NCBI RefSeq assembly: GCF_964340395.1
Contig: NC_135554.1
Coordinates: 26,967,592 to 27,031,591 of the forward strand
Length of the DNA stretch: 64,000 bases
Source: Glandiceps talaboti
Taxonomy: Eukaryota > Hemichordata > Enteropneusta > Spengelidae
Direction of reading: 5' to 3'
Of the stretch, positions 22,401-59,231 are shown piece by piece. The notes beneath the pieces were generated by a model. It was not told the origin of the DNA and ran no database searches. It saw only the letters and a list, made by a program, of their open reading frames with translations. The position numbers and the translations under genes are program-made. How positions within the stretch are numbered: the first letter of the stretch is position 1; every line of letters begins with the position of its first letter.

Positions 22401-24298
22401 TGCCAGAATATTCACAAACATGGGATCATCTGATAGCTAAACACCAAAACAAACGCTGTGTTACCATAGCAATGACCTATGCTAATAGCTAAACACCAAA
22501 ACAAATGCTGTGTTACCATAGCAATGACCTTGGCTAATAGCTAAACACCAAAACAAAACAAGCACTGAATGTTACCAAAGCAATGACCTATGCTAATAGC
22601 TAAACACCAAAACAAAACAAACACTGAATGTTACCATAGCAATGACATATAGTGTTAGAAACCTGGCTTGGAGTTCAGCATAAAACTATTAAAATCTTCA
22701 GTTTCCATTGCATGATGATAGTTATGTAAAATGAATGTCCATTATGCTTCAATCTATAACTGCTGATTAGTTACAACTCTTCTATTGAGCTGAAAGCTGA
22801 ATTCCTTCTGTGGACAATGACCAGAATTGTTTGGCCATACATGTAAAGCTTGTACAACCACTATTTCCAGTCTTGCATTAACCACAATGTAACTTTGCAA
22901 CTGTATTCACATATGTAACACTTAATTCTCACCACCAACTCAAGTCTCTCTGAACTGTTTTTTTGTTTGTTTCTTTGTTTGTTTCTTTGTTTGTTTGTTT
23001 GCTCTCATATACATTCATTCTAGTACCATTCTAAATCACTTTCTCCTTCATAACACTTCTGATGATTTCCTGCAATATTACTATCCTGTAATTATATAAC
23101 TATGACAATAATACACACAAAGATGCAAATGAAGCTACCATGCCACTAATAATGCATTTCATCAGAAAAAATGAAAATTAGAAAATTATCAGATGAATTA
23201 TTTCAGTTATAACATTTCTTTGAGTTAACAGGGTGAATTATGTTAGGGAATGTCTGTTAACAGTGTACTATCTCACACAGTGGGTTATGTTGGGGAATGT
23301 CTGTTAACAGTGTACTATCTCACACAGTGGGTTATGTTGGGGAATGTCTGTTAACAGTGTACTATCTCACATAGTGGGTTATGTTAGGTAATGTCTGTTA
23401 ACAGTGTACTATCTCACACAGTGGGTTATGTTGGGGAATGTCTGTTAACAGTGTACTATCTCACACAGTGGGTTATGTTGGGGAATGTCTGTTAACAGTG
23501 TACTATCTCACACAGTGGGTTATGTTGGGGAATGTCTGTTAACAGTGTACTATCTCACACAGTGGGTTATGTTGGGGAATGTCTGTTAACAGTGTACTAT
23601 CTCACACAGTGGGTTATGTTGGGGAATGTCTGTTAACAGTGTACTATCTCACACAGTGGGTTATGTTAGGGAATGTCTGTTAACAGTGTACTATCTCACA
23701 CAGTGGGTTATGTTGGGGAATGTCTGTTAACAGTGTACTATCTCACACAGTGGGTTATGTTGGGTAATGTCTGTTAACAGTGTACGAACTCACACACTGG
23801 GTTATGTTGGGTAATGTCTGTGAATTAACAGTGTACTAACTCACACAGTTTGAATGATAGTCACCCAGAATTATGTGAATTTCTTCTGTAATTCAGTTCA
23901 TTTCAATACAGTCACATGTGCTGCAGTGCCATTTCATTTTCTATGTCATTGTCTCATGTCATTGTCTTCACACTGTCTTTTTCCAGATCTACAAGGCTTA
24001 CAATTCCCGTACATGCTTTCCAGGCTTCAAACAAACAATCATCCACACTATCCCTGGATTATTCACAGCCGGAACAGGTCTCGTTTTGTATGCCTTTGTA
24101 GAGAATGATGCTAACTATTACCTAATTCACAGTCTTTGGCATGGTCTCATTGCTTTGTCCATCATTTTTTTACTACCACCAAAACAAAAAAATTCTAAAA
24201 AGGGTTTGAGAAGAGTACCATCGGATGAAAACATGTTAAGTGAGGATGAAGAAGATGAACCAGAGGATAATGGCAGAGATTTGCCGCAACCAATTTAA
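11561..24298 (+). CDS. TMEM8/PGAP6-like membrane protein, isoform a (12 exons)
   Basis: Complete gene of the TMEM8 (PGAP6) family, CREST superfamily; vertebrate PGAP6 is a GPI-directed phospholipase A2 at the cell surface. Exons: 11561-11630, 12664-12850, 14080-14290, 15461-15594, 16394-16683, 17332-17819, 18223-18419, 18947-19104, 19743-19921, 20553-20706, 21345-21445 and 23987-24298. Phases agree throughout, giving 826 residues against 771 in human TMEM8A. The first 23 residues are a signal peptide. A long Cys-containing ectodomain follows. Residues 526-578 form an EGF-like module (CNGHGTC). Seven helices start near residue 585. CREST residues are present: Ser637, His641 and Asp644 (FYHLCD), then HSLWH at 771-775. 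The acidic C-terminal tail is specific to this isoform. The enzymatic role is inferred from the family. Confidence 0.93.
12210..12327. mobile_element. 118-bp foldback element in TMEM8-like intron 1
   Basis: Two arms of about 53 bp are near-perfect inverted copies around a 12-nt loop (CTACCTACACAC). Both ends read TAGTCTAGAAT or its close variant. It looks like a small non-autonomous DNA transposon. No clear target duplication was found. Confidence 0.7.
13891..14126 (+). repeat. Five-fold tandem duplication of a splice acceptor and exon start
   Basis: A 47/48-bp unit, comprising ACATTACAG plus the first 32 nt of exon 3, is repeated with starts at 13891, 13939, 13986, 14033 and 14080. Only the last copy runs into the exon body (14080-14290) in frame. 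The earlier copies diverge from exon sequence at the unit end and re-enter intron sequence. Confidence 0.92.
16031..16355. repeat. Degenerate (ATCATAT)-type satellite
   Basis: Imperfect short-period run of ATCATAT/ACATC units filling the end of intron 4, up to about 40 bp before the acceptor of exon 16394-16683. Confidence 0.8.
16660..16790 (+). repeat. Tandem duplication of an exon end and its donor site
   Basis: The last bases of exon 16394-16683 and its donor (GAAGGTAAGGAGAAT) are followed by two imperfect copies of about 45 bp. The last copy restores a full donor at 16777. The extension is interrupted by an in-frame TAA at 16719, so the first donor is the functional one. Confidence 0.75.
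17060..17256 (-). mobile_element. Truncated copy of the TTAA-flanked MITE
   Basis: This segment of intron 5 is similar to the right half of the element at 27197-27537: same TTTGTAACTCAATA interior, same CCTCATACATATGGCCACT end, and a TTAA at 17253-17256. The left half is absent. Confidence 0.7.
17959..18049. repeat. Tetranucleotide microsatellite (GGTT)n(GATT)n
   Basis: A GGTT block converting to a long GATT block, in an intron. Confidence 0.95.
18475..18530. repeat. Dinucleotide microsatellite (CA)n
   Basis: About 20 CA units with a CATG lead-in, in intron 7, about 55 bp after the donor. Confidence 0.9.
19142..19480. repeat. TG and TATG microsatellites in intron 8
   Basis: A (TG)n block (about 19160-19245) and a (TATG)n block (about 19367-19480), separated by ordinary sequence. 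Confidence 0.92.
19950..20110 (+). mobile_element. Possible tRNA-derived SINE fragment
   Basis: The stretch from TTGGCCATGAAG to GAGTTTAAGCCC resembles decayed RNA polymerase III A and B boxes about 40 nt apart. It is followed by a tRNA-unrelated part (TGAGTTTGCTGTAAAGAG) of the kind seen in invertebrate SINEs. No poly-A tail or target duplication was seen, so this is tentative. Confidence 0.35.
20196..20475 (-). pseudogene. Unrecognised protein-like fragment antisense in an intron
   Basis: Two adjacent minus-strand frames have protein-like composition (for example [17 protein letters not shown], and [19 protein letters not shown] ending at a stop near 20196). They are not in one continuous frame. 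I do not recognise the family. It lies in the TMEM8-like intron 9 and is most simply a decayed insertion. Confidence 0.3.
21985..22155. repeat. 22-bp minisatellite
   Basis: About seven copies of a 22-bp unit with core TGTATTAGCCGTCTTGAGAC in intron 11 of the TMEM8-like gene. Confidence 0.9.
22430..22650. repeat. About 55-60-bp minisatellite, four copies
   Basis: Units carry TAGCTAAACACCAAAACAAA and GTTACCATAGCAATGACC. Length varies because a short AAACA block expands in later copies. Confidence 0.88.
23222..23850. repeat. 47-bp minisatellite, about 13 copies
   Basis: Near-identical 47-bp units with core GTCTGTTAACAGTGTACTAT, ending about 135 bp before the acceptor of the isoform-a terminal exon. 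Each unit contains the palindrome TGTTAACA. Confidence 0.93.
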
Positions 24299-27537: not shown

Positions 27538-27638
27538 TTAATTAGAACAGTTATGATGTACACTGAATTTGATAGTGTTTTCTTGATGTCTATTCATTCA
27601 GTTTGCATGTTTGTGCATGTTTCATTGATTCTTCACAG

Positions 27639-27941
27639 GGACGTAAGATGTACAAGAGAAGGAGAATCTATCCGAGTGTAAAGCGGTGGTTGTTATTTTT
27701 CTTACCTGGTTTACTGCTAGCAGGAACAGGTCTCTTAATCTACACGTTTTTTCAGACTGATGACAATTATTATATTACTCACAGTATATGGCATACATGC
27801 ATGGCATTGTGTATAGTCTTTCTACTTCCACCAAAACAAAAAGAGAAAGTAAGTGAAAGCTACACCTTGGATGAATTTGATGCAGTAATATCAGACTCCT
27901 GGAATACAGAATTAGTTCCTAATGAAAACAGACCAGTATGA
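27639..27941 (+). CDS. Alternative last exon of the TMEM8-like gene (isoform b)
   Basis: A second version of the terminal exon. It starts in phase 0 after CTTCACAG, like the exon at 23987, and encodes the last two membrane helices with HSIWH in the same register (residues 771-775), then a different tail. Joined after exon 21345-21445 it gives 823 residues. About half of the first 68 residues match isoform a, including PGL, AGTGL, NYY and FLLPPKQK. Features such as the basic K-R-R-R and RWLLFFLPG look closer to vertebrate TMEM8. It has no upstream TMEM8 exons of its own, which favours an alternative last exon over a second gene. Splicing to it is inferred. Confidence 0.85.
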   Translation, partial: GRKMYKRRRIYPSVKRWLLFFLPGLLLAGTGLLIYTFFQTDDNYYITHSIWHTCMALCIVFLLPPKQKEKVSESYTLDEFDAVISDSWNTELVPNENRPV

Positions 27942-32165: not shown

Positions 32166-32554
32166 CAAACCCGGCTACAGATTGAGTGGTCATTGCTGGA
32201 TGAGATAGTGAGAAACTATTGAAGGGGTCCTGCTACAACCATTGTTAATATTTTGGAAGGAGACTGGTATAAATCGACACGATCCACCAGCAACCATGGA
32301 ACAAACTAAAGTGTACATTTTTCATCTTTATTTTATGATACATCTAGATTTGTAACTTCATCCAGAACTTCCATCCAATCAAAAATCTTTCAATAAGATT
32401 CTCATTTAATAACAATATGAAGTGGGGTTTGTGTGCTGTAAACATTAGACTGGCACTGCAATCACGCGAGTAACCCATCAAAATATGGAAAGCATTGTAA
32501 CCAACGCTGAGGACACTTCTTATTGTATTATGACCATATTTTCGAACTTTCTAA

Positions 32555-32761
32555 CAGAGATTGTATGGCTGGGGTACACTTTTTCAAAGCATCTTCCAAT
32601 GAAAACAGCCCATGCTTGTCTCCCTTATGGCAAGTGACTGCACATCGCATACATACTGTTTCCTGACATAGATCACAGAAGAATTCAAGTTGACTTTGAG
32701 AATGTTTTGTGCAAAATCTGGGAACAAGTGCAGATTGGTTTCTATCTTCAATTAATTTTGC
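32555..32761 (-). pseudogene. Recent partial copy of the B-box 2 segment of the RING/B-box/Deltex gene
   Basis: About 207 bp matches 47732-47938 with roughly seven differences by eye (about 97% identity). It covers the end of the second B-box ([14 protein letters not shown]) into the start of the coiled coil. No RING or Deltex part is present. It sits on the same strand as its source, 15 kb away. It still has an open frame over the copied part, but lacks start, splice context and flanking domains, so it is a duplicated gene fragment. Confidence 0.85.
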
Positions 32762-43745: not shown

Positions 43746-46700
43746 TTACTGTATTCCTTTGGCTGCCAACTCCGCCCTCATTTGGATGAAAAATTCCATG
43801 TCAGGTGCCAGACGAACTCGTTGTTCCCTGTGTACAAATAACGAAGAATATATGTAATAACAATATCGGAATATATGTTAATAAAATGCAAAACGCAATT
43901 GCCATTTATGATTGATAGCCACATGAACATTGGATTCAGATATACATATTTTTAGGGTTATTTTATTCATGGAAGTTTAGTGTTCACTGCATTAGAGAAA
44001 TATTGTAAATGCATTGATCACGTTATATTAGCATGTACCTAATCAAATATGAAACTAATAAATGGTAATGATAACAATTTGATGTGAATTACACCACTCA
44101 TAATATCTATATGTATTTGACCATAGGCTAAGTATTTGTCTATGTCAAAACTCATTATTGAAACTTTCCTTAAAGCCTAGAATTTGAAGTTGTTTATTTG
44201 GTGTTACTTTTGAAGTAATCATCTGCTTCACATCTCTAATAGTATGTAGTTAAACCATAGACCCTCAACCAACATTGGTGGGGAGGGTCTATGGTTAAAC
44301 TTGGTGTACCAACATTGGTGGGGAGGGTCTGGTTAAACTTGGTGTACCAACATTGGTGGGGAGGGTCTATGGTTAAACTTGGTGTACCAACATTGGTGGG
44401 GAGGGTCTGGTTAAACTTGGTGTACCAACATTGGTGGGGAGGGTCTATGGTTAAACTTGGTGTACCAACATTGGTGGGGAGGGTCTATGGTTAATCTTGG
44501 TGTACCAACATTGGTGGGGAGGGTCTGGTTAAACTTGGTGTACCAACATTGGTGGGGAGGGTCTATGGTTAAACTTGGTGTACTAACATTGGTGGGGAGG
44601 GTCTATGGTTAAACTTGGTGTACCAACATTGGTGGGGAGGGTCTATGGTTAAACTTGGTGTACCAACATTGGTGGGGAGGGTGTATGGTTAAACTTGGTG
44701 TACCAACATTGGTGGGGAGGGTCTATGGTTAAACTTGGTGTACCAACATTGGTGGGGAGGGTCTATGGTTAAACTTGGTGTACCAACATTGGTGTTGAGG
44801 GTGTATGGTTAAACTTGGTGTACCAACATTGGTGGGGAGGGTGTATGGTTAAACTTGGTGTACCAACATTGGTGGGGAGGGTCTATGGTTAAACTTGGTG
44901 TACCAACATTGGTGGGGAGGGTCTATGGTTAAACTTGGTGTACCAACATTGGTGGGGAGGGTCTATGGTTAAACTTGGTGTACCAACATTGGTGGGGAGG
45001 GTCTATGGTTAAACTTGGTGTACCAACATTGGTGGGGAGGGTCTATGGTTAAACTTGGTGTACCAACATTGGTGGGGAGGGTGTATGGTTAAACTTGGTG
45101 TACCAACATTGGTGCGGAGGGTCAATGGTTAAACTTGATGTACCAACATTGGTGGGGAGGGTCTATGGTTAAACTTGGTGTACTAACAACTGATTTATTG
45201 CATTTGAAATTTTCCAAGTTTATCCAACAAAACCTTGTTGGAAAACATAAATATAGAGACTTAGTAATGAACAGGATCACACGACATTGATAAGGCATGT
45301 GAATGATGTTGGTATGTGTAAAACTATGGACCAAAGATAACAAGTCTTCATAGAAGACACCCTCCCCCCCCCTCCCCCCCTCAATCACTTTACTTCTATA
45401 TGACTGAATGGTGACATGATAACTTGTACCTGATATGGCATAGACACTTGAATGGAGTCTCTATGTGTTACAGATTTTGACTTATGCAAAACATGTTTAT
45501 TTTAACTACAAATATAGCTGCCATTGTCAAATTTGCATATGTCACAAAAAAAGAAATAGTCAAATTTGCGTATGTCGCAAAAAAGAAAAAAACTGATGTG
45601 CACATGTCCCATATAACATGTCATTTTTGTACCAGGTTTGAAAGAAATCGGACTTGGTATGTCTGAGAAATTACAATAGATTACAGATGGACAGACAGAC
45701 TGATCGGACTTGGTATGTCTGAGAAATTACAATAGATTACAGATGGACAGACAGACTGATCGGACTTGGTATGTCTGAGAAATTACAATAGATTACAGAT
45801 GGACAGACAGACTGATCGGACTTGGTATGTCTGAGAAATTACAATAGATTACAGATGGACAGACAGACTGATCGGACTTGGTATGTCTGAGAAATTACAA
45901 TAGATTACAGATGGACAGACAGACTGATCGGACTTGGTATGTCTGAGAAATTACAATAGATTACAGATGGACAGACAGACTGATTGGACTTGGTATGTCT
46001 GAGAAATTACAATAGATTACAGATGGACAGACAGACTGATCGGACTTGGTATGTCTGAGAAATTACAATAGATTACAGATGGACAGACAGAATGATTGGA
46101 CTTGGTATGTCTGAGAAATTACAATAGATTACAGATGGACAGACAGACTGATTGGACTTCGTATGTCTGAGAAATTACAATAGATTACAGATGGACAGAC
46201 AGACTGATCGAACTTGGTATGTCTGAGAAATTACAATAGATTACAGATGGACAGACAGAATGAGCCCATTGTAATAGTCCTTTGAGGGGACTAAAAACAT
46301 TCTTACCCCTCTTCAGTTTCGCCAGGTGACCCTTCTCTTGATGTCTTATGTTTAATGTTCCATGCTAGTCGATTTGTTTTAGGGTCAACAATGAAAGTTA
46401 ATTGGCGATTGAATGCCTTCCTTAGTAGTCGAAGCAATCCTCTACCCAGTGTGTTATCAGGCAAATATGCATAAAAGACCATGTCACAGCTTGGCTTTCC
46501 TTGGTTTGGATGATGCATCTAATATCAAAAATAATTAAGAAAACAAAAAAAACAAAGAAATATCAATCATGCAATAAATTTTATTGCAAACTGCAGCTCT
46601 TGGTGGAAAAAGTATAGCATTTCTTCCTTACCTCATTGATATTTTTTGTTTGCCTTTAAATGGTTTCAATAAAAGCAAATAATGATCACTGATTAACTAA

Positions 46701-48382
46701 ACTTCACATAATAACAAAGTAATTACAATCTATCCTACTTGACTTGCCGTTGTTTTGAATGGCAACAGTTTCACTTCCTATCCTGGATGCTTCTTTAGGC
46801 CAACTGATGATCTAATGACAGATGGTTGGTGATACCTGATGGAGTAGAATTGACGGTTCTGATCATCACATATGACAATTCTACTCCGTCAGGTGTCACC
46901 AACTATCTTTCATAAGGTCATCAGTCGGCCTGAAGAAGCATCCAGGATAAGACATGAAAATGTTGCCAATCAAAACAACAGCATGCAATCCATTAGGATA
47001 GATTGTAATTACTTAACTCCATACCTGGATGATTGAGAATATAAACTTCACATAACTGGTGTTTTAATGATTTTAGCCATACAATGTTACAGTATTAAAG
47101 GTGTTGAAGGCAATGAGAAACAAAACTCAGTTCTAACCTTTAGCATTTTTGCTGGAAAGTTGTATGTGATGACGATAGTAGGACATTGAAATCCAGGCAA
47201 ATAGCGGCAAGACATGTCATGACTCATGGTTCCACGAGGCATAAGGTCTTCAGACAGACCTTCAGATTTCCTGAGTTCACCTAAAACTGGCTGCAGACAG
47301 TTGGCTTCATAAAATGAAATATAAGACTGATTTTCCAGTTCTGCCAACTCTCTAGTGTACCTATCAGAAGAAGAGTGCTTCTCAATATTCCTTAGGCGAT
47401 CCTCGAGTTCCCTTTTCTGGGAAAGAATATCTGTTTGGCTCCCATGCTGTTGAATGTTGTGGACATATGTTGTTAATGTTTCTGCCTGTCCAAGGTCAAA
47501 TTCGATAGACTGGTTAGTTGCTTCAACTTGTTTCATCATATCTGCAAATGTCTGGTTGACTTTGTTTATAAGTTTTTCTTCCTCATCTCTAATACTTGTA
47601 ACTACTTTATCTGTATGAGCTCTAATCTGAGTGAAAATGTGAGCTTGTTGAATCTTGACATCTGCTGCTACTTTCTTAGAGTCATCATTAATCTTTTGTA
47701 GAGAAATGACTGTATTTTCTAACTTTTCTGTCAGAGTTTGTATGGCTGGGGTACACTTTTTCAAAGCATCTTCCAATGAAAGCAGCCCATGCTTGTCTCC
47801 CTTATGGCAAGTGACTGCACATCGCATACATACTGTTTCCTGACACAGATCACAGAAGAATTCCAGTTGACTTTGAGAGTGTTTTGAGCAAAATCTGGGA
47901 ACAAGTGCAGATTGGTTTCTATCTTCAATGAATTTTGCGTACTCCTCACTAGTAATAAACCTATGATTTTGTAACATTCGAAGCTTCTCATGCGATTGAC
48001 GGCAAACTGAGCAGAAGAACTGGGCACAATCCATACACCAGAATAAGGCGTTATTGTCACAGAGGGTGCAACTCATTTTATCTTTGTTGCTCCCTTGTAC
48101 ACCAACCTTATCGAATAATTCCAACATATCATTGATGAAAAGATTGTTTTTCAAACCTTGTGCTCCAGTTTTGGGAAGTGGACATGACTCACGACATATT
48201 GGACACGTCAGCTCGCCGTTATTCTTCTTGATCCATTCACTTAAACAGACTTCACAAAATGTATGCACACAGGGCAATATCTTTGGGTTTTCCATTCTTT
48301 CTTGGCAGATAGAGCATAGTAGAATTCTTCTATCTATATCACTTATGATTTTGTGAGGGAAAATATCACCACTGCTTGCCAT
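43746..48382 (-). CDS. RING / B-box / coiled-coil / Deltex C-terminal fusion E3 ubiquitin ligase
   Basis: Three exons on the minus strand: 48382-47138, 46518-46307 and 43827-43746. The borders fit (donors GTTAGA and GTAAGA, acceptors TATTAG and ACACAG) and phases 0 and 2 match, giving 512 residues. Domains: RING 23-63 (CSIC...CVHTFC...CPIC), B-box-like zinc fingers 105-140 and 163-198, coiled coil about 204-345, then a Deltex C-terminal (DTC) domain from about 380 ([57 protein letters not shown] at the C-terminus). A RING of this type transfers ubiquitin from an E2; DTC domains bind ADP-ribose and help ubiquitinate ADP-ribosylated targets. The start chosen is MASSGD, with a good Kozak context (AAAATGG); 35 further in-frame codons precede it. 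It is head-to-head with SDR-B. Confidence 0.87.
44250..45190. repeat. 40-bp minisatellite seeded by a hairpin, about 23 copies
   Basis: The array starts with a short palindrome (ACCATAGACCCT...AGGGTCTATGGT, 44251-44300), and each unit repeats its right arm: GGGTCTATGGTTAAAC plus TTGGTGTACCAACATTGG. Some early units lack two bases. It lies in intron 2 of the E3 gene. Confidence 0.93.
45646..46262. repeat. 56-bp minisatellite, about 11 copies
   Basis: Near-identical 56-bp units with cores TTGGTATGTCTGAGAAATTA and ACAGATGGACAGACAGAC, also in intron 2 of the E3 gene, about 45 bp from its second exon. Confidence 0.93.
46719..47012. mobile_element. 294-bp foldback element in E3 gene intron 1
   Basis: Both ends read GTAATTACAATCTATCCTA, and the arms stay inverted copies for about 125 bp, with ATCCTGGATGCTTCTT and GGAGTAGAATTG in each. 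Moderate arm divergence. No target duplication found. Confidence 0.75.
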
Positions 48383-49930
48383 TTTGACAGTTATTAAATA
48401 TTTATAAGAATGTGTAAAAAGACAGAAAACACACAAATTGAGTTGTAAGATCAACCACTTGTCAACTCTGACTTTACAAAGAAGCAATTAATGTTTTGAA
48501 CCCACAACTTCCAACGAGTTTAACGTCCTCTCTGAGGCACACTCCTATAGTTGTCCACCAAACATGGATGATTCTGAAATAAAAGATATATTTTAAAATT
48601 CTTGATTCATAATTTTATAATATGTTAATTCACTAATTCACTGCATATATCTAAGGTCAATGAGGTAAATGATCAATGTCATGGTTGGACAATAATAAAC
48701 AAGTTGGATAAACTCATGTACACTAGTACTAGTCTGGATATAAAGTCACTTCTGTGGCTCCTGGTTTTAATGTTTGAAGTTGGATCTTGAGTCACCTCAA
48801 AGAGGAATGCCATGTACTACTCCACGAAATAATGGCGCTTTCATAAACTTTGGGTTTTAGAAAGTCAGGTCATGATTTTATATCAACTATACATTCTGTG
48901 TGATTTCAGAGAAACACCTCTTTCTCTCTCTTGGGGATATTTGTTTGTACACAACTAAGTACATGTTGGGAGAAAGAGGATTTTAAGGTGTGGATCATTT
49001 GAAGATTTTTGCTGTGGACCACACTGCCTCACATGAGCTAGAAATATATATGTAAAAGGTGAACAATTAATGAATATTCATGACTTTAAAATACTTAATT
49101 ATCTTCAGTGAAAACATCATCTAATATCTACCACTATCTTAGTTGACATGACATTCACAAACCATTAGCGGCCCAAGTGCAACAAACCCGCGGGCTTGCC
49201 TGGCGAAAACGGGTGTCATAAAAGTTGTTTGCATCTCTAAAGCTGTTTGTAGCGTTACTATAATAGCCTAATAAATTGATAACAACTGATATAAGACGAA
49301 GATAAGGTTTGCCTCAATTGCAGTCCATGCAGACGGCCGAATAGAGGTTTTTACAGCTGTTTACTTGTGTTATGTAAGAGCCCATCGTCACATGTGTAAA
49401 TATTGGTACTCTTTGATAACAAGTCCACTTGCTTGGCTAATGGCTTGTCCCAGTAATGATTGTTACACTGTAATCAAAATTGTTCTGATATCTGTTAATG
49501 TTGGAATATCATACGTAATGCCAACATTCTGCTAATCCAAGTTACCAAACAATATCTAGCAATGTTGGAAAGATTTTAGTTGAACCAGGGGCACATTCCA
49601 TTTCAGGTTTACTGCCTTTGATTATTTTGTATGGACACCATTTGTATCATGTGACAATTCATGACCCCGACATTCATACCAGCAACCCCCCCCCCCTCTA
49701 GTTTTTGAAGACTCCCTAACAGTTAACCATATAGTTCAGTGGACATGTGTAGGAATTTGAAAATCAAATGTACGTATGAAATTGAGTAGATAATAACAAT
49801 AAAAGTACGAGACTTAACGCCGAACATTGAAGATATAACTGAATGCAAAAAAGAAAAAGAAAAAGAAAAAGAAGCAAAGCTTAAACAAATTAGAAACACC
49901 GTAAACCAGCTAGCCCATGTGCGTTGGTTT

Positions 49931-57868: not shown

Positions 57869-59231
57869 AGCCACTGAATTATCAAAATTACTTGTGTCTG
57901 CTTCCTTTATAGTGTGTAGATGTCCGTTTGTGTTTTCATTTTGTGATTTACCGTAACGTATTCCTTTGTTGTGTTCATAAAATATTCATTTCAATTTCTA
58001 TGTACATCCATCATGTCACCTGGACTCATCTGCTAACTTCTCTTCGTCCAATAACATCCATCTTCAAATTCTAACATCCAATCACTTCCTTTTTTCTACA
58101 TCTCTTTCAACACATAATATTTTTTTTTAAAGTATGTGTGGCTGGCTAATTAACAAAGAAGTGCAGACATGGCCAAAACAGCTACACAAGACTAGTGTAT
58201 AAGAATGTGTACAAAGACAGAAAACACACACATTGAGTTGAATTGGGAAATTTTATGTAGGAACTAAGAAAGTAAGATCAACCGCTTGTCAACTCTGTGA
58301 TTACAAGGAGACAGACATTTTGGACCCACTAACTTCCTATTAAGTTTCACCTCTCTGAGGCACATTCCTACAGTAGTTGTCCACCAAACATTGAATGATT
58401 CTGAAATAAAAGATATATTATTTTATAATTCTTGATTTATAATTTCACAATATGCTAATTAACTACATATATTGAATTAGAGGTAAATGATCAATGTCAT
58501 GGCTGGATAATAATATACAAGTTGGATAAACTCTTGTACACTTGTACTAGTCTGGTTTAAAGTCACTTCTGTGGCTTCTGGTTTTAATGTACGAAGATGG
58601 ATCTCGAGTCACCTCAAAGATGAATGCCATGTACTACTCCAGGAAATAATGGCGCTTTCATAAACTTTGGGTTTTAGAAAGTCAGGTCATGATTTTATAT
58701 CAACTATACATTCTGTGTGATTTCAGAGAAACACCTCTTTCTCTCTCTTGGGGATATTTGTTTGTACACAACTAAGTACATGTTGGGAGAAAGAGGATTT
58801 AAGGTGTGGATCATTTGAGGATTTTTGCTGTGGACCACACTGCCTCACGTGAGCTAGAAATACATATGTAAAAGGTGAACAATTAATGAATATTCATGAC
58901 TTTAAAATACTTAATTATCTTCAGTGAAAACATCATCTAATATCTACCACTATCTTAGTTGATTGTTACACTGTAAACAAAATCGTTCTGATATCTGTTA
59001 ATGTTGGAATATCATACATAATTTATACCAACATTCTGCTAATTCAAGTTACCAAAAAAATCTAGCAATGTTGAAAAGATTTTTGTTGAGCCAGGGGCAC
59101 ATTCCATTTCAGGTTTATAACTGCCTTTAATTATATTGTATGGATACCATTTGTATCATGTGACAATTCATGACCCCGACGTTCATTCCAGCAAACTCCC
59201 CCCCCCTGCCCCATTTTTGAAGACTCCCTAA

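Follow-up and report, generated by a model that had tools for sequence, protein, structure and literature searches.

Gene structure and domain organization

The 64,000-nucleotide stretch of the Glandiceps talaboti genome analyzed here (contig NC_135554.1, positions 26,967,592 to 27,031,591; hereafter the window, with positions counted from its first letter) contained a minus-strand gene in which a TRIM-type N-terminus, consisting of a RING, B-boxes and a coiled coil (RBCC), was joined to a Deltex C-terminal (DTC) domain. Three exons separated by GT..AG introns could be joined in frame into 512 residues followed by a stop codon. The features of the gene were as follows.

47138..48382, minus strand: exon 1 (1245 nt), with the ATG, RING, B-box 1, B-box 2, coiled coil and the first 35 DTC residues
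48194..48316, minus strand: RING, residues 23-63 (PF00097, E=8.6e-11)
47960..48070, minus strand: B-box 1, residues 105-141 (PF22586, E=1.6e-6, best stretch 105-141)
47777..47896, minus strand: B-box 2, residues 163-202 (PF00643, E=7.3e-10, best stretch 163-202)
47444..47776, minus strand: coiled coil, residues 203-313, a single long helix in the AlphaFold2 model
47138..47242, minus strand: DTC part 1, residues 381-415, end of exon 1
46519..47137, minus strand: intron 1, phase 0, positioned as in the other tested DTC genes
46307..46518, minus strand: exon 2 (212 nt), middle of the DTC, with the shortened loop and with Lys471 at the DTX2 H582 / DTX3L H707 position
43828..46306, minus strand: intron 2, phase 2, holding two minisatellites
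43746..43827, minus strand: exon 3 (82 nt), last DTC helix, with Glu505 at the DTX2 E608 / DTX3L E733 position, and the stop

The in-phase exon joins proposed by the initial annotation were reproduced exactly by the NCBI model P0001 (Glandiceps talaboti, "E3 ubiquitin-protein ligase TRIM56-like"), which was identical to the window protein across 512/512 residues. One stop-free exon encoded the RBCC together with the first 35 residues of the DTC. At the sequence level, the gene was confirmed as real.

The C3HC4 RING was complete with 8/8 ligands (C23, C26, C38, H40, C43, C46, C60 and C63), and Arg64 directly followed its final CxxC. PF00643 and PF22586 each gave two stretches in the window protein, which agreed with the two B-box-type fingers noted initially. 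The nearest PDB matches to the TRIM part by sequence were TRIM3 (E=2.9e-27) and TRIM2 (E=3.5e-27), and a Foldseek search with the AlphaFold2 model ranked the TRIM2 RING (8ams) first. This model had a mean predicted local distance difference test score (pLDDT) of 64.7, with blocks of 85-92 at residues 21-70 and DTC blocks of 33-71. With its C3HC4 RING, B-boxes and then a predicted coiled coil, the window protein is, as modeled, a TRIM/RBCC protein.

Profile search of the 512-residue protein also confirmed the proposed DTC, which was complete (PF18102, E=1.1e-21, 77.9 bits against a cut-off of 25, model positions 4-133 of 133). The full domain arises from the exon join, because the exons taken singly scored E=0.17 (exon 1), E=2e-12 (exon 2) and no match (exon 3). 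Sequence matches of the DTC in the PDB were DTX3L 3pg6 (E=1e-15), DTX2 (4.5e-12) and DTX1 (5.3e-10). The Foldseek match of the window model to DTX3L 3pg6 (E=2.1e-7) had a root-mean-square deviation of 13 Å and a target template modeling score of 0.54, and therefore gave little beyond the sequence.

Both introns contained repeated sequence. A palindrome at 46745-46983 in intron 1 (arms of 119 nt, 84% complementary, spacer of 1 nt) is probably a small foldback element. The two minisatellites of intron 2 were at 44268-45188 (40-bp unit, 23 copies) and at 45647-46263 (56-bp unit, 11 copies).

Relatives in Ptychodera flava and the interdomain region

The same architecture was sought in relatives, and protein searches returned two further proteins that combine an RBCC with a DTC; both belong to Ptychodera flava and are named "TRIM56-like" by NCBI. 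P0003 (600 amino acids, isoform X2) stops before the last DTC helix, covering DTC model positions 2-110 of 133, and P0004 has 551 amino acids. Outside the hemichordates no protein with RBCC and DTC was returned by these searches, which need shared 5-residue words and do not demonstrate absence; parrot DTX3L, which has no B-box, was also returned.

Between its coiled coil and DTC, P0003 carried a complete second C3HC4. This RING runs directly into the DTC, and a DTX2 match covers part of the RING and the DTC together. A hidden Markov model (HMM) of the Deltex RING, derived from 19 Deltex-type genes of the G. talaboti genome, scored it at 19.4 bits, above 1000/1000 shuffles (maximum 15.3); the parrot DTX3L RING scored 60.5 bits, and Pfam gave E=0.012 only. 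Its assignment as a Deltex RING is based mainly on position, because the HMM match is weak. An AlphaFold2 model of P0003 was not used (mean pLDDT 45.7).

No Deltex RING preceded the DTC in the window gene, where the N-terminal RING was the sole RING found. Its interdomain region scored -1.9 bits with the Deltex RING HMM, and a Deltex RING remnant in that region was rejected on this score. For the P0004 interdomain region no match with the same HMM was reported.

The ADP-ribose pocket of the DTC domain

In DTX2, His582 and Glu608 are named as the catalytic pair, strictly conserved among DTX proteins; their substitution impairs the reaction, and H582 is in direct contact with ADP-ribose (accessible part of PMC7615817). 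DTX3L activity on single-stranded DNA (ssDNA) was abolished by H707A and considerably impaired by E733A, and DTX3L Y719 occupies the DTX2 H594 position, according to excerpts of PMC11460948. The triple mutation S568A/H582A/H594A of DTX2 eliminated ADP-ribose binding, as stated in the accessible text of PMC12402299.

The pocket of the window DTC was judged by sequence because of the low confidence of its structural model. A MAFFT alignment of 29 DTCs was used, comprising three of the window clade (window, P0003 and P0004) and 26 others, among them the genomic loci described below; these rows share descent, so that the counts are not independent events. For DTX2 numbering the first His of HHKT was set as 582, which placed S, H and E at 568, 594 and 608. 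Lys471 then fell at the H582 position (the first His of IHHKT) and Glu505 at the E608 position. A one-residue gap in the window row alone leaves the H582 placement open there; P0003 (T) and P0004 (R) were gap-free. His at 582 was found in 0/3 window-clade DTCs (K, T, R) versus 24/26 others, the exceptions being L022 (Arg) and L029 (Val). Glu at 608 was kept in 2/2 window-clade rows reaching it and in 24 of the 25 others reaching it (Gln in L029). The strand-loop-strand bearing residue 568 was 5 residues shorter in the window DTC, the pocket loop length being 10 in 3/3 window-clade DTCs and 15 in 25/26 others, with 9 in L030.

The retention of Glu noted initially was borne out by Glu505. The accompanying reading, that the His of the GHGYPD stretch had become Arg, stood only in part: HMMER alignment to DTX3L put Arg491 at the H594 position, MAFFT put Thr there, and the residue of DTX3L at this position is Tyr. 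That reading also omitted the catalytic His actually missing, the one replaced by Lys471. The initial proposal that the window protein recognizes ADP-ribosylated targets is not supported by its residues, namely the shortened loop, the change of H582 to Lys and the Arg or Thr at H594. The sequence argues against ADP-ribose binding by the window DTC, and the known ADP-ribose active site appears to be gone from it, with the fold apparently retained.

DTC and RBCC loci across the G. talaboti genome

A DTC family search of the 590-Mb G. talaboti genome, in which the window lies on C7, gave 54 DTC exon matches, which were resolved into the window gene and 23 loci outside the window, all of which were examined. 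These loci (L009-L031) lay on C8, C16, C5, C15 and C19, many of them clustered on C8 and C16, and were mostly equipped with a Deltex-type RING. Such a RING was read before the DTC at 19/23 loci and by eye also at L024 and L031. The intron sites of the window gene recurred in both position and phase (donor 1 at 20/20, acceptor 1 at 20/20 and acceptor 2 at 21/21 tested loci); L028, a DTX1/2/4-like locus with the GHGYPD form, was split differently and was excluded from these counts. The roughly two dozen DTC loci suggest that Deltex ligases expanded in this lineage.

A macro domain upstream of the RING was confirmed by Pfam at L012 (E=2.8e-29) and appeared macro-like by eye at L009, L013 and L015; many further DTC loci showed, by eye, an apparent macro-domain end upstream of the RING. 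Upstream of L013 and L015, L033 and L034 contained similar short coiled-coil-like frames, LKEQQ.ET.DAKAQVKILQDENQ, before these macro-RING-DTC loci.

The window RBCC matched same-strand RBCC exons upstream of the DTC at five of the 23 loci, L010, L014, L022, L024 and, partly, L012, the RING end of which was located in L032. All five carried a Deltex RING. The order at L012 was RBCC, a KH-like segment (KH_DTX3L, E=3.9e-4, below the Pfam cut-off), the macro domain, the Deltex RING and the DTC; at L014 and L022 exons appeared KH-like by eye and gave no Pfam match. His and Glu were both kept at L010, L012, L014 and L024, and L022 had Arg and Glu. The ADP-ribose-recognition proposal made initially for the window gene therefore fits these siblings better, and from their sequences they are candidate ADP-ribose ubiquitin ligases.

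The RBCC exons of L010, L012, L014, L022, L024 and L036 each had a phase-0 GT donor before the first stop, which fits onward splicing; at L010, no acceptor that was both good and phase-matched was found at the next exon. More RBCC exons may have been missed, because the examination extended no more than about 5-7 kb upstream of the DTC loci. An RBCC exon at C16:11548305, about 11 kb upstream of L013, is a possible L013 partner and was not counted.

Whole-genome RBCC ranking (468 candidates, 84 scored) gave 12 loci of at least 187 bits including the window, with other TRIM-type matches at or below 177 bits. Six of the 12 had a DTC (the window and the five siblings), and all five siblings were among the nine best non-window RBCC matches. 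The related RBCC loci C4:7779194, C15:14057437, C15:18394596 and C15:18414869 had no nearby DTC match at E up to 0.001, and C16:11572571 could not be assigned. At L035 (G000:C15:18393700-18395700, minus strand) an RBCC of the same subfamily ran stop-free into KH-like sequence; a PARP14-type KH match (E=0.0093, below the cut-off) lay in the same open frame as the RBCC, and judged from this frame L035 is a possible TRIM–PARP14-like fusion.

Homology of the tail following the coiled coil to the sibling RBCC exons was supported for P0004 (0/1000 shuffles). It was rejected for the window gene, in which such a resemblance had been noted by eye, and for P0003; 152/1000 and 853/1000 shuffles, respectively, scored as high or higher.

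Phylogenetic analysis

By BLAST score, the closest relative of the window DTC was P0003 (49%, 106 aligned residues), followed by L022, L014, L013 and L010 (41-42%). The closest relative of the window RBCC was likewise P0003 (48.5%), followed by L010, P0004 and L024 (40-42%), with three fish TRIMs at 22-32%; RBCC identity of the window gene to its siblings was 33-41%.

The DTC tree, in which 17/26 inner branches were open and the root was arbitrary, grouped the window with P0003 (96/91), and P0004, on a long branch, stood weakly with L010 and L013. L010, L012-L015, L022 and L024 (the C16 clusters at 11.5 and 13.2 Mb, and C15) lay outside an 87/85 group that held human DTX1, DTX2 and DTX3L, parrot DTX3L and other loci including L009. 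A clade of the three hemichordate TRIM-DTCs was not rejected (approximately unbiased test, p-AU 0.317). An origin of the window-clade DTC from DTX3L was rejected, its grouping with human and parrot DTX3L giving p-AU 0.013 for a group chosen after the tree. The RBCC tree placed the window with P0003 and P0004 (96/100), together with the long-branch metagenome row P0005.

Neighboring features of the window

The segment at 58198-58419 resembled 48403-48592, directly upstream of the window gene ATG (72% over 228 columns), and a repeat may extend into the promoter or 5' untranslated region of the gene. On the minus strand, 32530-32761 matched the region of exon 1 encoding B-box 2 at 94% identity over 233 columns, within a frame of 103 codons; from this identity it is taken as a recent partial duplicate of exon 1. 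Two alike frames on the plus strand, 23879-24295 and 27576-27938, matched DUF3522 (PF12036), presumably of the TMEM8/PGAP6 type, and are possibly a tandem gene pair.

Interpretation and alternative explanations

The window gene is probably an intact TRIM-type E3 ligase with a Deltex-derived DTC, in which the Deltex RING was lost, the ADP-ribose pocket dismantled and the DTC repurposed. Compared with P0003 of P. flava and the siblings at 5/23 loci, which carry fuller sets of domains, it has the look of a pared-down TRIM–Deltex fusion within a hemichordate family of such genes. An RBCC would have been fused ahead of a whole Deltex RING-DTC module in the hemichordate group, with at least one member also having a macro domain. 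The window gene and P0004 would later have dropped the second RING, loss being inferred rather than original absence, and the pocket would have been dismantled in the window gene lineage. In the present protein, the coiled coil may mediate dimerization, the N-terminal RING may transfer ubiquitin from an E2 onto substrate lysines, and the DTC may offer a surface that recognizes some ligand different from ADP-ribose, in which case the window copy would form no ubiquitin ester on ADP-ribose.

Several points weigh against this explanation. The gene is known here from DNA and predicted protein, fusion at the sibling loci was deduced from how the exons are ordered and from their splice sites, and the DTC of the AlphaFold2 model is of low confidence. 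With the same Deltex RING HMM, the second RING of P0003 scored below the N-terminal TRIM RINGs (31-36 bits). Because residue 568 varies widely and other DTCs do not keep Ser there, the evidence at that site comes down to the loop deletion. The pocket changes are not unique to the window clade, since the short loop also occurs in the non-fused L030 and His582 is also missing in L022 and L029. Some chemistry might persist, given that Glu505 and the conserved second His are still present. Finally, loss of constraint on the window DTC is possible because its branch is long (1.93 changes per column).

The last two points bear on two other explanations. The window protein might still read ADP-ribose, a related nucleotide or a nucleic-acid 3' end through a remodeled basic pocket (Lys471, Arg491 and Glu505), with the TRIM RING modifying lysines of the bound target. 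The retained Glu505 speaks for this, as do the four of five RBCC-linked siblings that keep His and Glu and the example of DTX3L, which has Tyr instead of the H594 His and acts on both ADP-ribose and ssDNA (excerpts of PMC11460948). Such reading is nevertheless unlikely: the pocket loop is shortened in 3/3 clade members, the residue replaced by Lys471 is the one that directly contacts ADP-ribose in DTX2 (PMC7615817, in part), and the DTX2 triple mutant does not bind (PMC12402299, in part). It is more doubtful still that the DTC is decaying and that the protein acts solely by means of its RBCC, perhaps as a regulator that mixes with full-length siblings via the coiled coil. The long branch, the altered pocket, the lack of a Deltex RING and the RBCC shared with siblings would suit such decay; however, Pfam still recovers the DTC at full length with 77.9 bits, and identity to P0003 is as high in the DTC as in the RBCC.

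An artefact, in which an adjacent TRIM gene and Deltex gene have been mistaken for one gene, is highly improbable. The gene was read from DNA and gene models; several loci have RBCC and DTC modules as neighbors, and on C16 such exons alternate in an array, which would allow such an error. The single stop-free exon holding the RBCC and the start of the DTC contradicts it for the window gene, and the identical NCBI model and the same fusion in two P. flava proteins also stand against it.

Comparison with known ligases

TRIM proteins usually end in SPRY, NHL, filamin or similar domains. The window gene shares with TRIM E3 ligases (TRIM2/TRIM3; TRIM56-like) the ordered RING, two B-boxes and coiled coil and the complete zinc ligands, but ends in a DTC instead. 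With Deltex DTX1-4 and DTX3L it shares the complete DTC and the intron positions common to 20-21 tested DTC loci; unlike them, it has no Deltex RING at the DTC, a shortened loop, a changed catalytic His and an N-terminal RBCC. P0003 and P0004 share with it the RBCC and DTC, the shortened loop and a non-His residue at the H582 position, whereas P0003 differs in its second C3HC4 before the DTC and in the early end of isoform X2.

Human DTX3L, which oligomerizes via D1 and D2, cooperates with the PARP9 macrodomains, and D2 reportedly first appeared with the amniotes (accessible part of PMC10955461). L012 likewise has a weak KH_DTX3L match, a macro domain, a Deltex RING and a DTC, but its macro domain and RBCC are, from the exon order, apparently in cis, whereas the human complex obtains its macrodomains from the partner PARP9. 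By analogy, the acorn-worm fusions may have reached a result similar to that of DTX3L-PARP9. The impression of the initial annotation that no family with this architecture had been described agreed with the literature search, which turned up no publication describing a TRIM–Deltex fusion; as that search covers few subscription journals, the case it makes for novelty is weak.

Deltex ligases place ubiquitin on ADP-ribose, TRIM ligases depend on coiled-coil oligomerization, and the macrodomain is a known ADP-ribose reader. The evidence is about evenly balanced on whether acorn worms evolved two-RING ligases that combine TRIM oligomerization with Deltex ADP-ribose ubiquitylation in one chain (RBCC, in some a KH-like segment or macro domain, Deltex RING and DTC), with the window branch giving up the second RING and the chemistry while its DTC took a new ligand. 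Such natural fusions would unite Deltex chemistry and TRIM oligomerization in one chain, to which L012 adds a macrodomain, and could serve as natural constructs for asking whether oligomerization and a second RING alter ADP-ribose ubiquitylation. The window gene itself would be a natural experiment in which the catalytic His was changed and the fold kept, and which could reveal other ligands of the DTC domain.

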